Of a stretch of 64,000 nt of DNA, positions 15,952 through 27,605 are shown one piece after another. This DNA comes from a virus: the IMG/VR virus record IMGVR_UViG_3300015373_000003, positions 1-64,000 of that record, one strand, 5' to 3'. The notes under the pieces were generated by a model that worked only from the letters and a program-made list of their open reading frames with translations, ran no database searches and had not been told where the DNA came from. How positions within the stretch are numbered: the stretch's first letter is position 1; each line of letters starts with the position of its first letter. The position numbers and the translations under genes are program-made.

Positions 15952-16169
15952 TGCCTACCTTTGCACCAACGTACATATTCACCGTCTGTAATTGAAATAT
16001 GTTTAGTACACATATCCCTATAGTCTTCGCGCTCACAATGAGGGTTGCCCCAATCACAACCGGGTTCAAAGAGATTGCCATCAAAATTCTTCAACGGTAA
16101 ATTAGTAGCTGTAAGAATAACTAGAACAGCTAATAAACCTACTATTGGGACTAGCAATCTAAGCATCAC
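15945..16169 (-). CDS. Small membrane-anchored or exported protein
   Basis: 74 residues. A hydrophobic N-terminal helix (LRLLVPIVGLLAVLVILTA, about residues 3-21) acts as anchor or signal, followed by a short exterior part with four Cys (GCDW, PHCER, DMCTK, RWCKG). Probably disulfide-bonded outside the membrane. Function unknown. Confidence 0.6.
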   Translation of the reverse strand: MMLRLLVPIVGLLAVLVILTATNLPLKNFDGNLFEPGCDWGNPHCEREDYRDMCTKHISITDGEYVRWCKGRHW

Positions 16170-17383
16170 ATATCTCGATACATGCGCGTGAGGATTCGAT
16201 CCTGCAAATCTTCATCTTCTGCCAGTGCTACACGCATAGCTGATTCGCCTTTGTACTTCTCGCCGGTCTGATCAAAATCTTCATCAAGGACGTAATGCAT
16301 TCCACCACCGCCCTTCTCGATTATGTCAAAGTGAAGACCTATTTCAAGTAATTCCCAGACATGATCAAAACCAATTGGGAATCTAACCTCACCGGTCCTG
16401 TGATCCATCACTGGAAATGCGAAACGCATCTTGGCATTGCGCCACGGTCGCCCGGTTGAATTTTTTACGATCTTGCAACTCATCTGTACTCCGTGTGGCT
16501 CTTTGCCGTCGGTACCTAATGAGCGGATATCAGGATCGGCTTTTTCCCAATCGTCTGTGAGGTTTCCGTTCTTATCCCGATACAGGCGCTTGGCAGCTTC
16601 ATACTCAATTGCTACGGACGCCTGATGGCGCAGAGCGCGGATGCCCGGAGGCGCTGTCGCCGGTCCCTTGTTTCGAGCTTGACCAAGCTGGCTCCGAAGC
16701 TGATCTACCATAATTAATACGTTCTCGTTACGGTCGCGGTCCTTGAGCGCCTGCTTGAGCCATTTAGTCCAAGCTTGTGGGCCAGCGCCTTGAGTATATT
16801 CGCCAGGTTTGATGCCAGCTTCCATCACCGCTTGCGTAGCTGAGGCACTATCGACTATCTGGATATGGAATGAATTCCAGCCATCGTGAATGCCCGCACA
16901 AATTTCCTCAATGATCGTGTGATTCGATAGCTCGATCTGCTTAGCATCGATACCGATCGCTTCAGCAAAATGGGGATCGAATCTGCCCTCGGTATCCCAC
17001 ATCATTACTGAAAGCTGTTCGGGGTATCTATCGAGCAGCTTCTTAAGTTCGGCCTTCTTATTCTTCGCCTTGAACTTATTATTTCCTTCAACTGCTTTGA
17101 TCTGATATTCGTACTGCTCTTCAAGTACCTCGTGGTAATGCTGAGCTACCCAAATTAATCCAAGGTTTGTGAGGCTCTTGCCTGAGTGCTCTGGCCCATA
17201 CCAGCGGCAGACATGCCCCCACGGGATTCCTCCTGTAGTCGCCCAAGTGAGCATCGGGGACATAAACGGCAGCTTGATCGGCGGCAGAGCAATTAATTCA
17301 GCGCCACGGATGACGCTCTCTGGCCCAAGCGACCTTTGCATTTTGGCAAGGAAATCATCCTTGCGGCTAGGATCTACCGGCAA
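16166..17383 (-). CDS. RecA-like recombinase ATPase
   Basis: 405 residues. Walker A is GPEHSGKS near residue 63-70. The strands and Walker B-like MMWDTEGRF and HIQIVDSASA follow, then NVLIMVDQLRS and a loop GIRALRHQASVAIEY, as in RecA/UvsX-like proteins. A Lys-rich insert (about 100-120) is unusual. The start is TTG with AAAGGA upstream. With the Cas4-like nuclease, RuvC-like enzyme and candidate SSB it would form the recombination set. Confidence 0.85.
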   Translation of the reverse strand: MPVDPSRKDDFLAKMQRSLGPESVIRGAELIALPPIKLPFMSPMLTWATTGGIPWGHVCRWYGPEHSGKSLTNLGLIWVAQHYHEVLEEQYEYQIKAVEGNNKFKAKNKKAELKKLLDRYPEQLSVMMWDTEGRFDPHFAEAIGIDAKQIELSNHTIIEEICAGIHDGWNSFHIQIVDSASATQAVMEAGIKPGEYTQGAGPQAWTKWLKQALKDRDRNENVLIMVDQLRSQLGQARNKGPATAPPGIRALRHQASVAIEYEAAKRLYRDKNGNLTDDWEKADPDIRSLGTDGKEPHGVQMSCKIVKNSTGRPWRNAKMRFAFPVMDHRTGEVRFPIGFDHVWELLEIGLHFDIIEKGGGGMHYVLDEDFDQTGEKYKGESAMRVALAEDEDLQDRILTRMYRDM

Positions 17384-17394
17384 CTTATTCCTTT

Positions 17395-18108
17395 CTAAAG
17401 TCCAGGGAGATGGCGGAACTTAAATTGTGCGTATCCGCGCTCACCATCTCTCAAACGAGCACCACTTTCGCCATCACCCCACGGCGATGTGTCAAAGCGA
17501 TAATAGTCGCCCTTGTTAGGCAAGTTATAGAATTCAATAAATACATGCCCGCTGTGCCAACAAACAGTGAACCAATCACCCTTGCCCTCTTGGCCCCAGC
17601 CACCGAACATGCCGGATACCCAAGCGATAGGAAAACTGAACATGCCTGCACGCTTGAGCGCGAGTGAGGTAGATGATGAGCAATCCATATTGGCATTGGA
17701 CCGCATTAATCTAAGCAGTGGCCCATGTCCACCGCCGTATACATAACGTGGCCGCGCATCAGAAATTTTGCTACAGACACGGAATAACTTCATCGCTATA
17801 CCACGAGCCGTATTGTTGCGTCGCCGCCTACGCCTGACTCTGCCACGGATCAATTGCCCACGAGTATTTAGATGAGCCGCATTAGGATGATCTAGTCGGC
17901 GTAGGAAATGACTATCGAAATCGCCAGTCTGATCCTTCTCGATATCACCTAAATAAAAATGAGCTTTCTTGATGCGATGACGTATATCCTGCTTGGTCGC
18001 ATTCTTAGCTAGCGGCTCAACTTCAAGCTCCATCTCTCTAAAGAAATTACCTAGCGCCTGTTTAACTTTACGGCGCGCGTGCATAGTTTCTAAGCTGCCT
18101 TCAGCCAT
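17395..18108 (-). CDS. NlpC/P60-type cysteine hydrolase
   Basis: 237 residues. The N-terminal half is basic (RGRVRRRRRRNN near residue 90) and may bind nucleic acid or the wall. The C-terminal half carries the papain-like set: YVYGGGHGPLL, then catalytic Cys in NMDCSSSTSLALKRAG (near 142) and His in HSGHVFIEFYN (near 189). NlpC/P60 enzymes usually cut gamma-D-Glu-mDAP bonds in peptidoglycan. No signal peptide is seen and the gene lies between dnaE-like and recA-like genes, far from the lysis genes. A tail-injected hydrolase or a non-wall amidase are alternatives. Confidence 0.75.
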   Translation of the reverse strand: MAEGSLETMHARRKVKQALGNFFREMELEVEPLAKNATKQDIRHRIKKAHFYLGDIEKDQTGDFDSHFLRRLDHPNAAHLNTRGQLIRGRVRRRRRRNNTARGIAMKLFRVCSKISDARPRYVYGGGHGPLLRLMRSNANMDCSSSTSLALKRAGMFSFPIAWVSGMFGGWGQEGKGDWFTVCWHSGHVFIEFYNLPNKGDYYRFDTSPWGDGESGARLRDGERGYAQFKFRHLPGL

Positions 18109-21100
18109 GGGTTAGTCCCCGCCTTCTTCCGCGTTGTTTTCTTAAGACTTGCCTTCGTCTTCCGCCGCTGTTCGCCCACTGCAATTGTCTCAACATCATC
18201 TATGTGCTGAGCTACAATCTGATTGCGATTGTCCTTAAAGCCTGCCACCAAGATCACTGATGCGTCTTTAATCTTGTGCTTGTTCTCGGCCCATGCCTTC
18301 GGGAATATCGTGATCGCATATTGATCTGCTCCGAAGGCAAGATCAACAAAAGCCATTTCCTTCTTTTGCTTCTTAGTGACAATAGGCTTGACCGCCAATA
18401 TCTCGCCGCCCACCACGATATTTGCTGCCTCGCATTCATCACAGTCGCACCAGGGTTTGTGATCCTCAGGCTTGTGCGGCAGATCCTCTATCTCTGCTGT
18501 AGAGAAAATACGATCTTCAATGAATTCCTGATAGCGATGCACCACAGTCTCACGCGACACAACATTACCGAGCACTTCTTTTTCCATCTCAAGGATTTCG
18601 TTCTGAGAAGGCTCGATCAATTCCTGCTCAGGCGGTTCCTTGTCCTTCATGTAGTGGAACTTAATGTGCTCCGCATAGGTGTAGTACGGATCGACTTCAA
18701 TCATTTCCTTAATCTCAGTCGAATCGTGCTTCTCACAAATGGCAGGTTTCTTCCATTCCTCTGGCTCGCCCGTCCGCATCTTCTTACACCCGCACGCCAT
18801 CACCACGTTGTATTTGTTCTTTGCCCAGCGCCGAGTCTTGGCTAGTAACGCTTCCCGATCTTCTCCAAGGGAATCGAATGCGCCAGCTTTAACAAGTGCG
18901 GCGGCATTATCGGCTCCGAAGTTGCTTGGGGTACGCCTAGCAAAATCATCAAATGAAGAGACTGGACGTACCTCTTTGACTTGATCAACTGTCAATCCTC
19001 CTAAGCCCTTGACGCTGACTAGTCCATAACGCAGCCGGTCGCCATCGATAATGAATCCGCGCTCGCTGGCATTTACATCGGGCGGATCAATCTTTACGTC
19101 GAATAATTCTGCTTCGCGGAAGATCCCTCGCTTCCATTCGGCATCCTCTTCGGCTTTTGCTTTTCGTTCGATGGTAAGAGTGGCCGCATAAAACGCAAGG
19201 GGATAATTAACTTTGAGCCACATATCCTGATATGCCTGCAAGGCGTAGCTGGCGCTGTGGGATTTGTTGAATCCGTATCCGGCGAATTCAAGGATGGCAT
19301 CCCAGATAACCCCGGCAGCGGTTTCGTCCAAGCCATTTGATTCACACCCCTCTAACCATTGATCCTTGAAGCCCTGCATGAATGCTCGTGCCTGGTCACC
19401 AGGGAGCCGGTAGAGCTTCGAGATTGCCTTACGCATTGAGTCTGCTTGCCCACCCGTGAAATTACCGATGACCTTAGTAATTTCCATAACCTGCTCTTGG
19501 AAGGCAATCAGGCCACAGGTTTCTTTTAAGATGGGCTCGACGGCATCGTGCCAATACCAATCGGCCTCGGGTATCTTCCCGTTCTTTCGATCCCCATATT
19601 CAAATGCAATTTTAATAGGGCCAGGCCGATAAAGGGCATTAGCAACGGCAATGTCGATGGTGCTGTCTGGTTTGATGTGGCGCAGGAGATTTGTGATCCC
19701 TCGCCCGGAGAACTGGAAGACACCTAGAGTCAATCCTTGAGTAAATGCGTCTAGCGCTTTTTGATCTGCGTTGTATGGATCGCGCAGAGCCGGTAGATCA
19801 TTCGGTTCAACTATGTCGCCATAGTGATCAGCAATTAAATCTACGCATAGTTGCTGCTTCGCTAATCCCTTGACACCGAGTACGTCAATCTTTACAAATC
19901 CGTAATCACTGATAATTTGGAAATCGGCACGATCCGCCCATGCTGTGACTGTTGTAATCTCATCATTTCCGATCTGAGTAGGCATATACTCATTTGTTGG
20001 CCGGGGGGTAATGAGCACGCCGCCTGCATGTCGGGTATCTCGGAGTATTTGATCTTCGAGCCGTAAGCACTGTTCCCATACGTAGGGGTGTTCTGTCTTG
20101 AGTTTACGAACCAATCCATTTTCTGCTGCAATCTTTTCAAGATCGCGCTCTGTATCTCCGATTGAATCTGTGACTTTTTTGATGAATCCATAAGGAAGAT
20201 CCTGTGTAGCTGCAACCTCTTTGATTGTCACGCGCGGAGCGAAGGTCTGATAGGCAATGATATCCGCTACGTGATCGTCACCATACTTGGCCTTGAGATA
20301 TTCCTTGACCATCTCGCGGCCGTCCACCATTTTGCCGTCGAGAGTTTCGAAATCATTTAAGTCAGTCTCGAAGTCAAGATCAATATCCGGCATCCCGACA
20401 CGATCAGGATTCAGAAACCTCTCAAACAACAGACCCCAGGCAATTGGATCAATTGCGGTGATGCCGATGAGATACGAGATAAGACACCCTGCCGCAGAAC
20501 CTCTTCCAAGACCCACCCGGATAGGCCGCTTACGCTTGTCAGAACCGGGTAACGCATCTCTGCTCTTTGCCCAGCGGACCATATCTCCGACCAAGATGAA
20601 ATAGTCCAACACACCTTTGTCTCGGAGCACTTTGAATTCATAGTTGTATCGGTCACGATATTCCTGCCAATTCTTTGGCTTGCCCGTTGGGTATTGACTC
20701 TCTTTGCACCAACGCTTGACGATACGCTCTGCATCTAGTGAAGTCTTAGCTACCTTGGGCAGCTTAGTGGCATTACTGATAACAAAATGCTTGACTGAGC
20801 GAGCCAACACTTCAGTATTTGCTATCGCCTCATCGACAATATCCTCATCGATATCCTCGTGGTACTCAGCAAACTGCTCGCGGAACTCGTCTTCCGGGCT
20901 TAAGTAAATGGTGTCGATCCGCTCTCCGTATACGTCTTCGCCAGCCTCTTGCTTTTTGGCGCGCTTGGAGAGCGTCTGTTTTGTGCTGACCATCTTGAGC
21001 ACAAGCGCCGTATCTTCCCACTCTTGATACGGAATATGCACATCACCTGTTGCGACGACGCCAAAGCCATGCTCCTGAGATAAGTTTATTACGCCTTCAT

Positions 21101-21713
21101 TGATTGAACGCTGCTCATCTAGATCGTGAGGCATTATCTCGCCCCAAAAGCGATCACCTAGAAGGTTCTGCATGCGTGAGCAATACTCATCTGCGCCTGA
21201 TTGATCACCGGCCAGGATTAATTGAGAAAGTGGACTAGCGAAACAGCCAGAACAAACAATTAAATCCTCGTGGTCTGCCTCTAGCATTTCCCAATCGATG
21301 CAGGGTTTGCCCTTGAAGCCGCCCTTGCGGTCGATAGGAATCCACCCCTTGCTCGATAGACGCATCAATGTCCGCCAACCACGGAGACTGCCAGCGATCA
21401 GAGTTAAATGATTTGCACTGCTGTAACTCTTCTGTTCCTGAAAGCGGTTATCGCGCCAGTACGCTTCCATCCCGAGCAGCGGTATTAACTTTTCGTCTTT
21501 ACCGCGCTTCTTAGTCGGGTCGTCTGGATCGTCAAACTTATCAGGATTCTGACAAACGTAGACATGATCCAATACGCCGCCCAATCTACCATGGTCGGTA
21601 ATAGCCATAAATTCTTGCTCGAATTTATAGCCTTGCTTGGTATATTGATTAGCGTTGCCGGTCCCATCAATGGATGAAAATTCCGAGTGTTTATGAAGGT
21701 GAGCTAGACCCAT
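18090..21713 (-). CDS. dnaE: DNA polymerase III alpha subunit (DnaE-type replicase)
   Basis: 1207 residues, close to bacterial DnaE length. An N-terminal PHP domain (LAHLHKHSEFSSIDGTGN) is followed by the polymerase core: GLGRGSAAGCLISYL near 415, the catalytic pair PDIDLDFE near 441, and KIDVLGVKGL near 610. A helix-hairpin-helix and OB-fold region follow. Two unusual Cys groups in the C-terminal part (MACGCKKM...AICEKH and WCDCDECEA) may bind zinc. DnaE-type phage replicases are known in actinobacteriophages. It is the largest gene of the replication block and overlaps the next gene by 19 bases. Confidence 0.95.
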   Translation of the reverse strand: MGLAHLHKHSEFSSIDGTGNANQYTKQGYKFEQEFMAITDHGRLGGVLDHVYVCQNPDKFDDPDDPTKKRGKDEKLIPLLGMEAYWRDNRFQEQKSYSSANHLTLIAGSLRGWRTLMRLSSKGWIPIDRKGGFKGKPCIDWEMLEADHEDLIVCSGCFASPLSQLILAGDQSGADEYCSRMQNLLGDRFWGEIMPHDLDEQRSINEGVINLSQEHGFGVVATGDVHIPYQEWEDTALVLKMVSTKQTLSKRAKKQEAGEDVYGERIDTIYLSPEDEFREQFAEYHEDIDEDIVDEAIANTEVLARSVKHFVISNATKLPKVAKTSLDAERIVKRWCKESQYPTGKPKNWQEYRDRYNYEFKVLRDKGVLDYFILVGDMVRWAKSRDALPGSDKRKRPIRVGLGRGSAAGCLISYLIGITAIDPIAWGLLFERFLNPDRVGMPDIDLDFETDLNDFETLDGKMVDGREMVKEYLKAKYGDDHVADIIAYQTFAPRVTIKEVAATQDLPYGFIKKVTDSIGDTERDLEKIAAENGLVRKLKTEHPYVWEQCLRLEDQILRDTRHAGGVLITPRPTNEYMPTQIGNDEITTVTAWADRADFQIISDYGFVKIDVLGVKGLAKQQLCVDLIADHYGDIVEPNDLPALRDPYNADQKALDAFTQGLTLGVFQFSGRGITNLLRHIKPDSTIDIAVANALYRPGPIKIAFEYGDRKNGKIPEADWYWHDAVEPILKETCGLIAFQEQVMEITKVIGNFTGGQADSMRKAISKLYRLPGDQARAFMQGFKDQWLEGCESNGLDETAAGVIWDAILEFAGYGFNKSHSASYALQAYQDMWLKVNYPLAFYAATLTIERKAKAEEDAEWKRGIFREAELFDVKIDPPDVNASERGFIIDGDRLRYGLVSVKGLGGLTVDQVKEVRPVSSFDDFARRTPSNFGADNAAALVKAGAFDSLGEDREALLAKTRRWAKNKYNVVMACGCKKMRTGEPEEWKKPAICEKHDSTEIKEMIEVDPYYTYAEHIKFHYMKDKEPPEQELIEPSQNEILEMEKEVLGNVVSRETVVHRYQEFIEDRIFSTAEIEDLPHKPEDHKPWCDCDECEAANIVVGGEILAVKPIVTKKQKKEMAFVDLAFGADQYAITIFPKAWAENKHKIKDASVILVAGFKDNRNQIVAQHIDDVETIAVGEQRRKTKASLKKTTRKKAGTNPWLKAA

Positions 21714-22664: not shown

Positions 22665-23174
22665 TTACTCGTCGTCCGAGCCGCCGCCCTTGAACGGAGA
22701 CTTACGGGTTTTGTTCTTGCTCCCCTTCGGGCGACCCGGCCCACGCCCGCTCTTTTTAGGCGCTGACTTTGTGGTGGTCTTTTTATTAGTCGAACCCTTG
22801 GGGCGACCGGGACCGCGCTTCTTACCGCTACCCGGTGGGCGACCACGCCGCTTCGGAGCTTCCTCAGCCGTTTCCTTCTTAGGCCGACCAGGCTTACGGC
22901 CAGAACCCTTCGGACGGCCACGCTTCGGCTTAGCAGCCGCGCTACCCACGCTAACAATCAGCTTGGGCGGCTGTGGCTCTTCCTCAACATCAACATGCTC
23001 GATGCTAGATTCCTCAATTACTTCAAATCCAGCTTCGTAGTCAACTTCCACACCTTGCTCTGTCGCTGCATCAAGAAACCCTTCAAGGGCCTCAGCGCTA
23101 TCCGCCGCGTCAACCTCACCTAAAGACTCAAGGTTTTCGTCGTCATCGGCGACATAGATTTTATAAATAGGCAT
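22665..23174 (-). CDS. AT-hook DNA-binding protein
   Basis: 169 residues. The N-terminal ~70 residues are acidic (MPIYKIYVADDDENLESLG). The C-terminal ~90 residues carry five GRP-core AT-hook motifs (KRGRPKGS, KPGRPKK, RRGRPPGS, GPGRPKGS twice) in a Lys/Arg-rich background. AT-hooks bind the minor groove of A/T-rich DNA. A nucleoid-like, packaging or xenogeneic-silencer-countering role is plausible. Confidence 0.8.
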   Translation of the reverse strand: MPIYKIYVADDDENLESLGEVDAADSAEALEGFLDAATEQGVEVDYEAGFEVIEESSIEHVDVEEEPQPPKLIVSVGSAAAKPKRGRPKGSGRKPGRPKKETAEEAPKRRGRPPGSGKKRGPGRPKGSTNKKTTTKSAPKKSGRGPGRPKGSKNKTRKSPFKGGGSDDE

Positions 23175-23209: not shown

Positions 23210-24028
23210 CTACCGGCGGCGACGAACTTTAGTGGTGCCTTTAGAGCGCTTTCGCCCGGAGCGCACCTTTGTTTCTCCATCCTCGCCGCTACTACGGCTA
23301 CTACGGAATTTTGCTTTTGTCTTCCCACCAGACTTTTTACGCTCTCCCCATGGATTTGCTTTCTTGCCTTCCTCTACTGCTTTGGCATCTCCGCGATCCT
23401 TCGGAGAGACATAAAACTCTTCGAACTCTGGCGGCTTCACATAGAAGGTTAAATCAGGCTTTGTTTCTGCCAGTTGCTTGTCTTCCTTCGACATTGGCTC
23501 AGCGCCATCACCGGCAGGCTCAATTTCATATTCGGTCTTGAGCTTAACGCCATCACGGGTGATTTCCCAATCCCGCGACATAAGACCATATCGAGAATGC
23601 TTCTTAGCTAATTTATCTCCAACCTTGACGCCACCAGTCCAGACAACAACCTGATCTTTTTCATCAAGAACCTTGCCGTTGTCATCGACTTCAGGATAAT
23701 CACGGACGATAGCGCAGACATAGAATTTATATCTAATATCTAGCTCGTCGCGGCAGCCAGGGCAAGGCACACCTTTTTCATCCTGATCGAGACAGGGAAC
23801 GTCGAGATAATACGTACTTCCATCGTCGCGCTCGAAAGGCGTGTTATGCACATATGCATCCTTGAAGTCTTCGCCCTCTTCAAGAAAACGCATGACAACA
23901 GTTTCGCCGTCTTCAATCGTCAAAAATTTCTTGCCGCCGCTCATTTTGCTATCGACGCGCTTTTTGGCACGTGCAACTTTTCCTAAAGTGCGGCCTGGCT
24001 TTTCTGTGCGGGATCTTGTTCTTGCCAA
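23210..24028 (-). CDS. Single-stranded DNA-binding protein candidate (gp32-like)
   Basis: 272 residues. Opens with a basic tail, then KKFLTIEDGETVVMRFLEEGEDF, a zinc-type Cys group (VPCLDQDEKGVPCPGC) and YKFYVCAIVRDYPEV, an arrangement like the OB-fold ssDNA-binding proteins of T4 gp32 type. Unlike typical SSBs it ends in a basic tail (GRKRSKGTTKVRRRR), not an acidic one. The start is TTG with AGGAG upstream, and a promoter candidate precedes it. Placed next to the primase gene. Function inferred from pattern and neighbours. Confidence 0.6.
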   Translation of the reverse strand: MARTRSRTEKPGRTLGKVARAKKRVDSKMSGGKKFLTIEDGETVVMRFLEEGEDFKDAYVHNTPFERDDGSTYYLDVPCLDQDEKGVPCPGCRDELDIRYKFYVCAIVRDYPEVDDNGKVLDEKDQVVVWTGGVKVGDKLAKKHSRYGLMSRDWEITRDGVKLKTEYEIEPAGDGAEPMSKEDKQLAETKPDLTFYVKPPEFEEFYVSPKDRGDAKAVEEGKKANPWGERKKSGGKTKAKFRSSRSSGEDGETKVRSGRKRSKGTTKVRRRR

Positions 24029-24083: not shown

Positions 24084-24113
24084 ATCATAGCACGGGACTA
24101 TCGGGGATTGCAA
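24084..24113 (-). promoter_or_regulatory. Leftward promoter, TTGCAA-N18-TATGAT
   Basis: TTGCAA (24108-24113), 18 bases, then TGC-TATGAT (24084-24089, extended -10) followed by CCCGTC, all on the minus strand. It drives the candidate SSB gene whose TTG start lies 56 bases downstream. Same TATGATCCCG core as at 28.7 and 55.1 kb. Confidence 0.6.
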
Positions 24114-25212
24114 CGTAGTTTGTACTGGCCTCGGCATTATCGATTAGCTGCTGAGCTTCATCGTCCTTGCCATCCCGCATCATATCTGCCGGATCGCCTT
24201 CATGCGGACCGACGATATAGACCTTCATGAACGGTTCTAAAAGGTCCACAATTCCACGATGCTCTGTGCCGTCCTTGCTTGTCCATCCCCAGGTCGCGGC
24301 GTGTCCTGCATTGTCGTGATCCAGAAATAAATACGCCAAAGTAAAATGATCGCGGATCAGTTTAGCTTGCCTATCGCTCATGCTAGAACCGCTGATCGAA
24401 ATGGCGTTATGTAAACCCATCTGATTCATTGCTATGACATTTAATTCTCCTTCGCAAATAATCGCTGAAAAGCTTCCTGCTGCTCTGTGGAGCCCGAAGA
24501 CATGGTGAGACTTGTCAAAAGTTGAAAAATCATAGCTACGTCCGCCCAGGACGAGGTACTTAGGTTTATGACCTTCTCGCCAGGCACGTGCCTTGAACCC
24601 CACAAGTAATCCATCCTTATCCCGCACGGGGATAACCCATCTTTCGGAGGTTGCGTCATAGCCGATTTCCCATTCCTTGAGAGTATCTATCTCGAATCCA
24701 CGACCAATTAAATACTGAGCGGCATCAGAATCATCCTGCTGTACCTTATCCCAATTCACCGCAAAAGGATATAGACAAGCTTCGTCTAGGTATGGATCAG
24801 CTTCGTAGGAGCGCTGTCGCATTTCCTCGAACTTCCTACGCCGCTGTTCAAACTCTGCCGAGATAGTGCCGCCCTTTGGAGAACGGAAATCGCTGGCATA
24901 CTCTCGCCGCAGCCAGGTAGCAGCTTCAAATTTACTTATATCCTCGTGCTCTGAGAGGAACGAGATGGCATTGCCTGAGCGATTGCAGCCGTGGCACTTC
25001 CATTTAGTAGCTCGCTCTGGCTCGACTACACCCGTGTTCATGTAGGCCGATGGGTTCTCGTCGCCGTGCGAATGGCCTGAGAAGGGGCAAGAGAATTTAA
25101 GCTCATCGGTACGCGCCTGAGATATATTCATTATGTCAAGCGTTTCAAGGAAGTCCTGCACATCGACCTTGTGCAGCCATTCGCTTGCTTTGAGTCTACG
25201 TCTACGCGGCAT
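24085..25212 (-). CDS. DnaG-type DNA primase
   Basis: 375 residues. The CHC2-type zinc finger is visible (CPFSGHSHGD near residue 42 and KCHGCNRSG near 73). The TOPRIM catalytic domain follows with ICEGELNVIAM near 255 and LFLDHDNAG near 297. Shorter than bacterial DnaG (about 600) because no helicase-interaction domain is seen, as usual in phages. It makes RNA primers with the DnaB-like helicase encoded nearby. Confidence 0.9.
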   Translation of the reverse strand: MPRRRRLKASEWLHKVDVQDFLETLDIMNISQARTDELKFSCPFSGHSHGDENPSAYMNTGVVEPERATKWKCHGCNRSGNAISFLSEHEDISKFEAATWLRREYASDFRSPKGGTISAEFEQRRRKFEEMRQRSYEADPYLDEACLYPFAVNWDKVQQDDSDAAQYLIGRGFEIDTLKEWEIGYDATSERWVIPVRDKDGLLVGFKARAWREGHKPKYLVLGGRSYDFSTFDKSHHVFGLHRAAGSFSAIICEGELNVIAMNQMGLHNAISISGSSMSDRQAKLIRDHFTLAYLFLDHDNAGHAATWGWTSKDGTEHRGIVDLLEPFMKVYIVGPHEGDPADMMRDGKDDEAQQLIDNAEASTNYVAIPDSPVL

Positions 25213-25684
25213 TTAATTCTTTGCGGATCTTCATCAGGATCTTGCCCAAATGATTCTCGCCGATCCTATAGAAATGCTTACGCTCGTAGCACGTGCAGTT
25301 GCCCCAATACTGATCGTGCCACGTATTGTCTTCCCGTAGAATCGCCTCGCCGGTAGCCAGTAGCCAGGCGGCAAGCTCAGGATGGTCATTGAACTTCTGA
25401 CGGACCAGGCCCTCCATCACCTTTACTTTAATACCATCCCAATTCTTCAGTAACGTGACTTCTTTGCCGCGCTGCTTGGCGACTCCCGGCGTAGGCGAAG
25501 AAAAAATGTATTTCTTTTCAAATGGGTTCTTTGTCTTAGCAGCCTGAAACTCCATCTCAACAGACGTACCATCAGGCTCAATATAAAAGTTGCTAGGAAC
25601 GCCATGTATCCAGCGTTGTCCATCGCGCCAGGTGAATTCATTAATCTCTTTAGCGTCTTCTGGCGGGGGATCATAGGCTTTCAT
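25202..25684 (-). CDS. NADAR-family (YbiA-like) N-glycosidase
   Basis: 160 residues covering a whole NADAR domain: PSNFYIEPDG, VEMEFQAAKT with the conserved Glu, AWLLATGEAILRE, YWGNCTC and GENHLGKILMKIRKEL, in the family order. NADAR enzymes cleave N-glycosidic bonds of ADP-ribose-type or riboflavin-precursor nucleotides, and some remove ADP-ribose from guanine bases, reversing DarT-type DNA ADP-ribosylation. In a phage the likely use is protection from NAD- or ADP-ribose-based defence. It overlaps the SLOG gene upstream by 4 bases. Confidence 0.85.
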   Translation of the reverse strand: MKAYDPPPEDAKEINEFTWRDGQRWIHGVPSNFYIEPDGTSVEMEFQAAKTKNPFEKKYIFSSPTPGVAKQRGKEVTLLKNWDGIKVKVMEGLVRQKFNDHPELAAWLLATGEAILREDNTWHDQYWGNCTCYERKHFYRIGENHLGKILMKIRKELNAA

Positions 25685-26268
25685 AGATTATTCGCCACCA
25701 CGCCCCAAGGATCATCGTCTTCATTGATGATCTGCCGCATAGCACGCATTTTATGTTGCACCCAATATAAATTAAAGACTGGTATCTCGTACATATTGGC
25801 CAGCCGAATCGCTTGACCTGTGCCGCCTGTACTAGTGCCAGTTTCGTCTGTAGCTCCATCAGGCGTCCAGCAAATAACCATCTTCACCGGATCGTCTAAA
25901 TCCCATCCGAGTACCTGATGCATGTTGCGGGCATGTAGCTTTTGCGCTGCCTCACTGCACTTTAGCCAAGCCGGATGGATTTCTGCGGCAAGCTCATATG
26001 CCTCGCGCTTGGGCGGACACCACTTGGAGTGCAATCCATTAAATCCATCCCACGGCAGGTATAGCTCCAACACACCGCCGCGACCGGAGTAATCAATTAA
26101 ATCAGACTCACAGCCCATGGCAAATGCATGATCAGCGCCATCAGCACCGCCTGTTCTGAGTATCCAGTCATGATCGGCAAATGACTTGCCGAGTAGACAC
26201 ATTAAGTTAAGGATCGACTGCGGGGTTTTGCGCGAGCCGATCCCCGCATACGCTTTCTTGGCTTCCAT
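25681..26268 (-). CDS. SLOG/DprA-like Rossmann protein
   Basis: 195 residues. YAGIGSRKTP at the start and WILRTGGADGADHAFAMGC are the nucleotide-binding motifs of the SLOG (LOG/DprA-like) superfamily. ICWTPDGATDETGTSTGGTGQA supplies the second conserved Gly-rich stretch. Such proteins bind or process NAD-, ADP-ribose- or CDP-type nucleotides. Sharing an overlap with a NADAR gene suggests that the two act on one nucleotide pathway; the substrate is unknown. Confidence 0.8.
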   Translation of the reverse strand: MEAKKAYAGIGSRKTPQSILNLMCLLGKSFADHDWILRTGGADGADHAFAMGCESDLIDYSGRGGVLELYLPWDGFNGLHSKWCPPKREAYELAAEIHPAWLKCSEAAQKLHARNMHQVLGWDLDDPVKMVICWTPDGATDETGTSTGGTGQAIRLANMYEIPVFNLYWVQHKMRAMRQIINEDDDPWGVVANNL

Positions 26269-27605
26269 GGATTATCTTCGCCTTTGAGTTCATCCGCGAC
26301 CTGCAATTTATCTTGCTCTCGCCTAGTCTTACGTCCCTTGAACTTGGGATTCTTCAGCTTACCATCATCATTTCTTTCAGGGAAGCGTTCGGCCACGCCT
26401 TTTTCTTGGATGACATGGCGCTCTAACTGCCAGCGCAGTTTCGTACTGGTCTTGCGACCGTCCCTGTTCTTGAGCAGCATAGCCTTCATTTCCTGCTGCG
26501 CTTCGTCTTCCTCGTCCTGATTGAGTCCAATAAGTAAATCGGAGTCCTTGCCAACAGATTGATAGGAAACGTTCGCAAGGCTAGCCTCACCCTTGCCGCC
26601 CTCGCGGTTAAGCTGAGCAGCCGAGATATGAGGGACGCGAAAGAGTCTCGCATTTTGCTTAAGACCCTGCGTCGTGTATTGGACCTGTTCCCAATGCGCT
26701 CCCCCAATTCCTTTCGGCGTCCGCATTAATTCCATGTAGTCCGTAATTACTACATCTGGCTTGTACCGCAAGAGTTTTGCTGCCACATTATCGACAGTGC
26801 AGTTTCGGATATCGTCAATGATGTAGATATCGCGCTCGTGTCGATCCTCGTGAGCCTGTTCGGCCAGCTTTTCCCATTGCTCACGATCCCCAATATCAAG
26901 TTCGAGGGCTTTGAGCGAATGGTATTTAAAATTAGTGGCCATAGTGTCAAGCGAACGTAGGATTGCTTCGGCTTCCATCTCAAGGGAGATATATACAGCC
27001 GTCTTTTTCTGCAAATAAGCTGAATACGCGACATGCTGTAGAAGCTTTGATTTTCCCACGCCTAGATAGGCGACTACAGTAACCAATTCATGCGGCTGTG
27101 CTCCAAGCGTTTCCCGGTCAAAAGAGGGAATACCCATCATCACACCTGGCGGCATCCCTTCCTTCTTACGCTTATCGTATTCCTTTATCCGCTCAAGCCC
27201 CTCAGAAAATTTCTTGACGCGGGGTGCTGGCACTACATCTACCAGCTTGCGAGCCATCTCAAGCGCAACTAGCTCTATTTCATTAATCTGCTCTGGATCT
27301 TCTAGAGCTTCGTGGAAGTCGCGGACAAGATCAATTGCCTCGCGCTCCTTGACAGTCGTTACGAATTGATCAATGAAATAGGGGAGGGTGTTGCGATCTA
27401 CCGCTACCTTGAAATCAGGGAATTCTTTGCGGACAACCTTGGCTGTTGCGGTAGATTTGTACTTCCGCCAATGGTCTAGCAGGAAATCATATATCTCTTC
27501 GCATTCCTCATCAGCGAAATGATCTAACTCAATTCCTCGTGCAATCGCTGTATCAAGATCGCCAGATTGAATTATTTTGCTGATTAGCCCCCGCTCAGCA
27601 TCCAA
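26202..27605 (-). CDS. DnaB-like replicative helicase
   Basis: 467 residues. An N-terminal helical domain (about 1-130) is followed by the RecA-fold helicase: MGIPSFDRETLGAQPHEL, Walker A YLGVGKSK near 181, Walker B-like PDVVITDYMELM near 290, ISAAQLNREGG and KNRDGR. A basic C-terminal tail (KPRKRMRGSARAKPRSRS) is extra. The start is TTG (27605), two bases past the upstream stop. It unwinds the fork for DnaE and primase. Confidence 0.9.
   Translation of the reverse strand: MDAERGLISKIIQSGDLDTAIARGIELDHFADEECEEIYDFLLDHWRKYKSTATAKVVRKEFPDFKVAVDRNTLPYFIDQFVTTVKEREAIDLVRDFHEALEDPEQINEIELVALEMARKLVDVVPAPRVKKFSEGLERIKEYDKRKKEGMPPGVMMGIPSFDRETLGAQPHELVTVVAYLGVGKSKLLQHVAYSAYLQKKTAVYISLEMEAEAILRSLDTMATNFKYHSLKALELDIGDREQWEKLAEQAHEDRHERDIYIIDDIRNCTVDNVAAKLLRYKPDVVITDYMELMRTPKGIGGAHWEQVQYTTQGLKQNARLFRVPHISAAQLNREGGKGEASLANVSYQSVGKDSDLLIGLNQDEEDEAQQEMKAMLLKNRDGRKTSTKLRWQLERHVIQEKGVAERFPERNDDGKLKNPKFKGRKTRREQDKLQVADELKGEDNPWKPRKRMRGSARAKPRSRSLT

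Follow-up and report, generated by a model that had tools for sequence, protein, structure and literature searches.

Phage gene neighbourhoods and fusions that combine SLOG and NADAR domains have been described as units that process ADP-ribose derivatives (Iyer et al. 2022, PMC9503650). The NADAR superfamily has several branches, which differ at the position of E125 in the Phytophthora nicotianae protein: YbiA-type members carry Glu there, DarT1-linked antitoxins carry Asp and phage gp30.3 carries His (PMC11543638). YbiA and the NADAR of phage T4 hydrolyse guanine-ADP-ribose in vitro without rescuing cells from DarT1, and thymidine-ADP-ribose is reversed by none of the NADARs tested in the same study, which also describes one E. 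coli NADAR whose operon includes sigma-70, primase and S21 (Cihlova et al. 2024, PMC11125620). Guanine-ADP-ribosylated RNA is a further NADAR substrate (PMC11833690), and a passage of PMC13092281 mentions defensive NADAR proteins. Two phage factors that counter DarT, AdfA and AdfB, are believed to target DarT itself instead of taking off ADP-ribose (PMC11481870).

The NADAR-SLOG pair considered here is encoded in a window of 64,000 nucleotides, bases 1-64000 of the 66,511-base IMG/VR record of an uncultured phage. On the coding (minus) strand, a DnaB-like replicative helicase (26202..27605; DnaB_C 1.5e-27, phrog_19 3e-59) is followed by a SLOG-fold protein of 195 aa (25681..26268), a YbiA-type NADAR protein of 160 aa (25202..25684; phrog_1017 1.4e-27) and a DnaG-type primase with a CHC2 zinc finger and a Toprim domain (24085..25212; DNAG_N 2e-11, Toprim_2 3e-8, phrog_47 1e-51). 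The same minus-strand module continues with an SSB-like protein (23210..24028; phrog_14578 2.5e-9) and a DnaE-type DNA polymerase III alpha (18090..21713; phrog_405 1e-244), beyond which lie a UvsX-like recombinase (16166..17383, minus strand; phrog_97 1.9e-22) and a Cas4-like exonuclease. All four central genes overlap. The 3' end of the helicase gene runs 67 nt into the SLOG gene, the stop of SLOG and the start of NADAR share the 4-nt sequence ATGA (25681..25684, minus strand), and the 3' end of NADAR extends 11 nt into the primase gene. The earlier note had placed both reading frames at 25202-26268, overlapping each other between the primase and helicase genes, and this arrangement stands. 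Judged from the sequence, the ATGA overlap could possibly couple translation of the two genes. This locus recurs in a second contig, IMGVR_UViG_3300015374_000001, at 99.98% identity; the region is therefore no assembly oddity of one contig, and an assembly artefact is ruled out. Promoter and terminator scans returned results at or near shuffled expectation, and searches with the helicase, polymerase and NADAR did not indicate a host. Adjoining the SSB-like gene, positions 22665-23174 of the window encode a small protein whose basic, low-complexity C-terminal tail carries GRPKGS-like repeats (AT-hook-like).

The NADAR protein scores 72.4 bits against PF08719 in a profile search (cut-off 35.1, E=7e-20) and lies above the cut-off again in a repeat search. 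Its relatives in the PDB include YbiA (1.5e-12) and 8BAU (3e-4), the ADP-ribose-bound NADAR of P. nicotianae. An AlphaFold2 model (pLDDT 86) matches the same two proteins in Foldseek, with 2B3W (YbiA) at 1.6e-7 and a TM of 0.73 and 8BAU at 7.7e-6 and a TM of 0.65. Against NF053876, the family of the DS32_2 NADAR anti-phage protein, the score is 42.5, below the cut-off of 240. For residue mapping, 8BAU served as the reference, using alignments to its chain, whose numbering offset of two was derived by counting, and the residues named for the P. nicotianae protein, namely E43, K50, R79, W89, R93, E125, D130 and W133 (PMC11543638). Their equivalents in the window protein are E43, K50, K74, W82, K86, E118, D124 and W127, such that R79 and R93 are both replaced by Lys. 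The catalytic set is kept as E43, K50, E118, D124 and W127, and the matching P. nicotianae residues (E43, K50, E125, D130 and W133) sit at the ADP-ribose site in 8BAU. Within an alignment of 61 phage sequences, none departs from E43, W82, D124 or W127, and 60 of the 61 keep K50 and likewise E118. The earlier note had pointed to conserved active-site Glu, Trp and Asn residues; their loss was looked for in an alignment and the residues are present (E43, E118, W122, W127 and N144). By its residues, the window NADAR apparently is catalytically intact, and E118 assigns it to the YbiA (Glu) type. Residue 79 is Leu in the window protein, at a position just before a conserved Trp that is Arg in 56 of the 61 phage NADARs.

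Two more specific identities were considered for this protein and rejected. A DarTG1 antitoxin would be expected to carry Asp where the window protein has Glu, and no ART adjoins the gene, whose neighbours are SLOG and primase. An orthologue of T4 gp30.3 is likewise discounted, as gp30.3 lacks the E118-x-N-x-W-x-D-x-x-W-G stretch, its own sequence there aligning poorly, and the window protein has Glu rather than His.

The sole strong family match of the SLOG protein is PHROG 768 ('DprA-like'; 6e-58). Pfam SLOG models give only sub-threshold scores, with LDcluster4 at 18.9 bits against a cut-off of 26.3 (E=0.0012), and PF02481 (DprA) is not matched at E<=0.1. Its relatives show weak Pfam matches to DprA (PF02481) in 54 of 61 and to SLOG cluster4 in 15 of 61. 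The predicted structure (pLDDT 88) is Rossmann-type, with strands alternating with helices, and its best Foldseek matches, all weak with a TM <0.5 on the query, are HpDprA at the top, a Moco carrier protein, ShosA, the LOG-like TT1887 and the SLOG domain of ThsA. Conserved features comprise G9-x-G11-S-R13, R38-x-G40-G-A42-D-G-A-D46, H98, R114-N115, Q118, C133 and G148-G-T150, and the pocket-type motifs G9xGSR13, G40xA42, D46, H98, R114, C133 and G149T150 are invariant across 61 phage homologues. The Rossmann core and the GSR-type and GGAxGxD-type motifs place the protein in the SLOG superfamily, an assignment based on PHROG and fold and not on a Pfam score above cut-off. It belongs to a subfamily nearest DprA and has a SLOG fold with a conserved putative ligand site. 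LOG phosphoribohydrolases are marked by the motif PGGxGTxxE, which contains the catalytic Glu. The corresponding region here reads GGTGQAIR, and 48 of the 61 sequences carry Arg in place of the Glu; with the catalytic Glu absent, a LOG enzyme was rejected, and the protein is probably not of LOG type. Family searches thus agree with the earlier note on both proteins, through PF08719 and PHROG 1017 for NADAR and through PHROG 768 and fold for SLOG. Its remark that SLOG members bind or cut NAD-, ADP-ribose- or CDP-type ligands applies to the superfamily in general; this subfamily is nearest DprA and is without the LOG catalytic Glu.

Searches run outward from NADAR and from SLOG separately show that the two domains meet repeatedly. 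Their genes overlap in two further loci (L120 and L184), are separated by 194-540 bp in three (L090, L098 and L068) and lie 1-4 kb apart in others, with a gene order that varies among loci. Single-chain fusions occur with SLOG preceding NADAR (L077 and L087) and with NADAR preceding SLOG (L086). A tree built from 165 NADAR domains scatters those linked to SLOG, placing them beside different sisters. The link recurs independently in unrelated phages as adjacency and as fusion, which supports the functional connection proposed in the earlier note and had been published before (PMC9503650). Several of these loci have features of their own. For instance, one fusion protein (L077:3919-6435) has 838 residues, a long N-terminal region that matches no Pfam family being followed by a SLOG-like and a C-terminal NADAR domain, and is possibly an injected multi-domain phage protein. 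In IMGVR_UViG_3300049014_000001 (L068:5959-7392), three genes stand in a row, for a NADAR, a DUF4326-like protein (a by-eye assignment) and a YspA-type SLOG protein, the same domain set as reported in PMC9503650 (SLOG, NADAR, DUF4326). In a bacterial contig of Clostridium porci (L274:4668-5796), a YspA-type SLOG gene is overlapped by the gene of a NADAR that is extended at its N terminus.

The strength of this link can be gauged from counts. Of about 80 viral NADAR loci, 9 have a SLOG within the flank, and of 80 cellular loci 1 does (Fisher p = 0.018). The numbers compared are small, the flanks were of unequal length (6 kb for viral loci, 5 kb for cellular ones) and the comparison is without a random-gene control. 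One of the nine viral loci (L100) is a weak match, and p = 0.034 without it; counting only fused pairs and those within 600 bp weakens the viral excess to p = 0.21. About 90% of NADARs have no SLOG nearby. A family tally of the genes adjoining 90 NADARs, taken without a baseline, includes replication and nucleotide genes as well as three SLOG neighbours, one being the window itself and two coming from the SLOG search. The NADAR-SLOG link is here taken as real but loose.

How the pair came to lie within the replisome genes can be approached from phages that have the module without it. Viral-contig searches for relatives of the helicase and primase returned only the near-identical contig, leaving no close pair-less relatives for comparison, and distant phages were therefore used instead. 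The helicases of Gordonia phage Skog and Streptomyces phage GiJojo are distant matches to the window helicase, and in both phages the helicase and primase genes overlap directly with nothing between them. This layout agrees with the pair having been inserted into an already existing module of the window phage. Elsewhere, in the two further loci with overlapping NADAR and SLOG genes, the pair has other neighbours and no recognised replication gene adjoins it, as judged by eye. Since the link persists outside the replisome, the replisome site is probably incidental, and it suggests timing of expression rather than mechanism. The earlier note had taken placement with replication genes to give early expression. 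That placement holds for the window phage but does not accompany the pair as a conserved trait; early expression from there is a plausible prediction. A partial parallel is Vibrio phage 501E54-1 (L025:4554-7343), in which NADAR is overlapped by a helicase gene and a YspA-type SLOG gene lies 485 bp downstream; the record labels this SLOG gene a 5'-3' DNA helicase-like protein, a name that is probably mistaken.

The explanation favoured here, tentatively and as one that falls a little short of probable, is that NADAR and SLOG form a portable two-protein unit handling ADP-ribose-type molecules made by host anti-phage immunity. The NADAR would be an active N-glycohydrolase, binding ADP-ribose and cleaving the link that joins its distal ribose to a base or a group of that kind, the basis for this step being homology and the intact residues. 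The SLOG protein may hold a nucleotide ligand in the conserved pocket and work with the NADAR, either by recognising or sequestering a signal or by presenting it. Early in infection, the two proteins would jointly clear a diffusible ADP-ribose derivative or take off adducts, and the place of their genes between helicase and primase in this phage would have them expressed along with the replication proteins. The intact catalytic residues, the fold match to YbiA and 8BAU, the invariant pocket-type residues of SLOG and the recurrent link support such a counter-defence unit. Against it stand the resemblance of the SLOG subfamily to DprA, a DNA-binding protein, by profile and fold, and the looseness of the link, seen in the small counts with unequal flanks, in the weaker viral excess within 600 bp and in the many NADARs that stand apart from any SLOG. 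The earlier note had likewise proposed a counter-defence unit, and the families, the NADAR site and the SLOG link uphold that part. Its suggestion that the pair reverses DarT-type DNA ADP-ribosylation finds no support in these results, given a YbiA-type NADAR and the findings that YbiA and T4 NADARs do not protect cells from DarT1 and that thymidine-ADP-ribose is removed by none of the NADARs tested (PMC11125620).

DNA repair at the fork offers another account of the same genes. The NADAR could strip guanine ADP-ribose from phage ssDNA exposed by the helicase before primase or polymerase reaches it, recruited by a DprA-like SLOG bound to ssDNA, with a DarT1-like or other ART as the source of attack. 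The position of the pair between helicase and primase, the hydrolysis of guanine-ADP-ribose in DNA and RNA by several NADAR types (PMC11125620, PMC11833690), the affinity of SLOG to DprA and the helicase-NADAR overlap of Vibrio phage 501E54-1 would all suit it. It is nonetheless unlikely, as the pair also occurs away from recognised replication genes, YbiA and T4 NADARs do not relieve DarT1 toxicity in cells, and the window protein has the YbiA Glu in place of the antitoxin Asp. A more elaborate form, in which the SLOG holds ssDNA or the ADP-ribosylated base behind the helicase and passes it to NADAR, which strips the ADP-ribose before priming, is very improbable; if true, the phage fork would mend DarT-type damage while moving. 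The DprA resemblance can also be read to mean that the two genes are unrelated neighbours, with a DprA-like SLOG that anneals single strands or loads the recombinase within the replication-recombination module, and a NADAR that is an independent accessory gene. Such a role would accord with the PHROG 768 name, the weak PF02481 matches and HpDprA fold match noted above, and the nearby UvsX-like recombinase, SSB and Cas4-like nuclease. But the window SLOG itself lacks a PF02481 match, its fold similarity to DprA is low, its conserved residues make a ligand-pocket pattern, and the two domains are repeatedly adjacent or fused, all of which leaves this account doubtful. Finally, the NADAR might serve metabolite housekeeping, hydrolysing damaged nucleotides or reactive intermediates of the riboflavin pathway, a role that has been put forward for YbiA-type proteins of cells. 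TIGR02464, the NCBIfam model for riboflavin-intermediate N-glycosidases, does match at E=2e-16, but its score of 60.5 is below the cut-off of 73.7, no riboflavin gene appears among the part of the window's ORFs searched against families, and the benefit to a phage is hard to see; this role is distinctly unlikely.

An ADP-ribose-centred counter-defence is plausible for the pair and has already been published for these two domains, a combination described in phages as a likely means of blunting NAD-based bacterial immunity. Among the known systems, E. coli YbiA and the orphan YbiA-family NADARs (2B3W, 8BAU) share with the window NADAR their fold, the catalytic E/K/E/D/W set and a single domain, at 33% and 28% identity, respectively, in structural alignments. 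The window protein differs from the YbiA family in a shortened first beta region before E43, in L79 and in lacking the YbiA genomic context. The DarTG1 antitoxin NADAR (BC4488 family) has the superfamily and the E43 and K50 equivalents in common with it, and T4 gp30.3, also phage-encoded, aligns at the equivalents of E43, K50 and W82. For the SLOG protein, the SLOG domain of Thoeris ThsA, LOG and DprA share the SLOG/Rossmann core and the GSR and GGAxGAD motifs; unlike ThsA, it has no SIR2 partner. T4 NADAR cuts guanine-ADP-ribose in vitro without shielding cells from DarT1, and the window supplies a compact pair, 355 residues in all, with which the substrates of phage NADARs could be tested. 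The closest parallel is the phage SLOG/NADAR/Macro/DUF4326 neighbourhoods (PMC9503650), where, as in the window, SLOG and NADAR stand side by side or fused in tailed phages, occur as small standalone proteins and are predicted to act in early counter-immunity. Primase and DprA go unmentioned in that account, whereas the window pair lies between helicase and primase and its SLOG is of the DprA-like PHROG 768 type, such that PHROG 768 proteins join the NADAR link as well as YspA-like SLOG proteins. Since SLOG/NADAR neighbourhoods were already described there, the window pair adds an example of a known combination, as an independent and, by its residues, catalytically intact addition to the recurrent phage SLOG-NADAR link.
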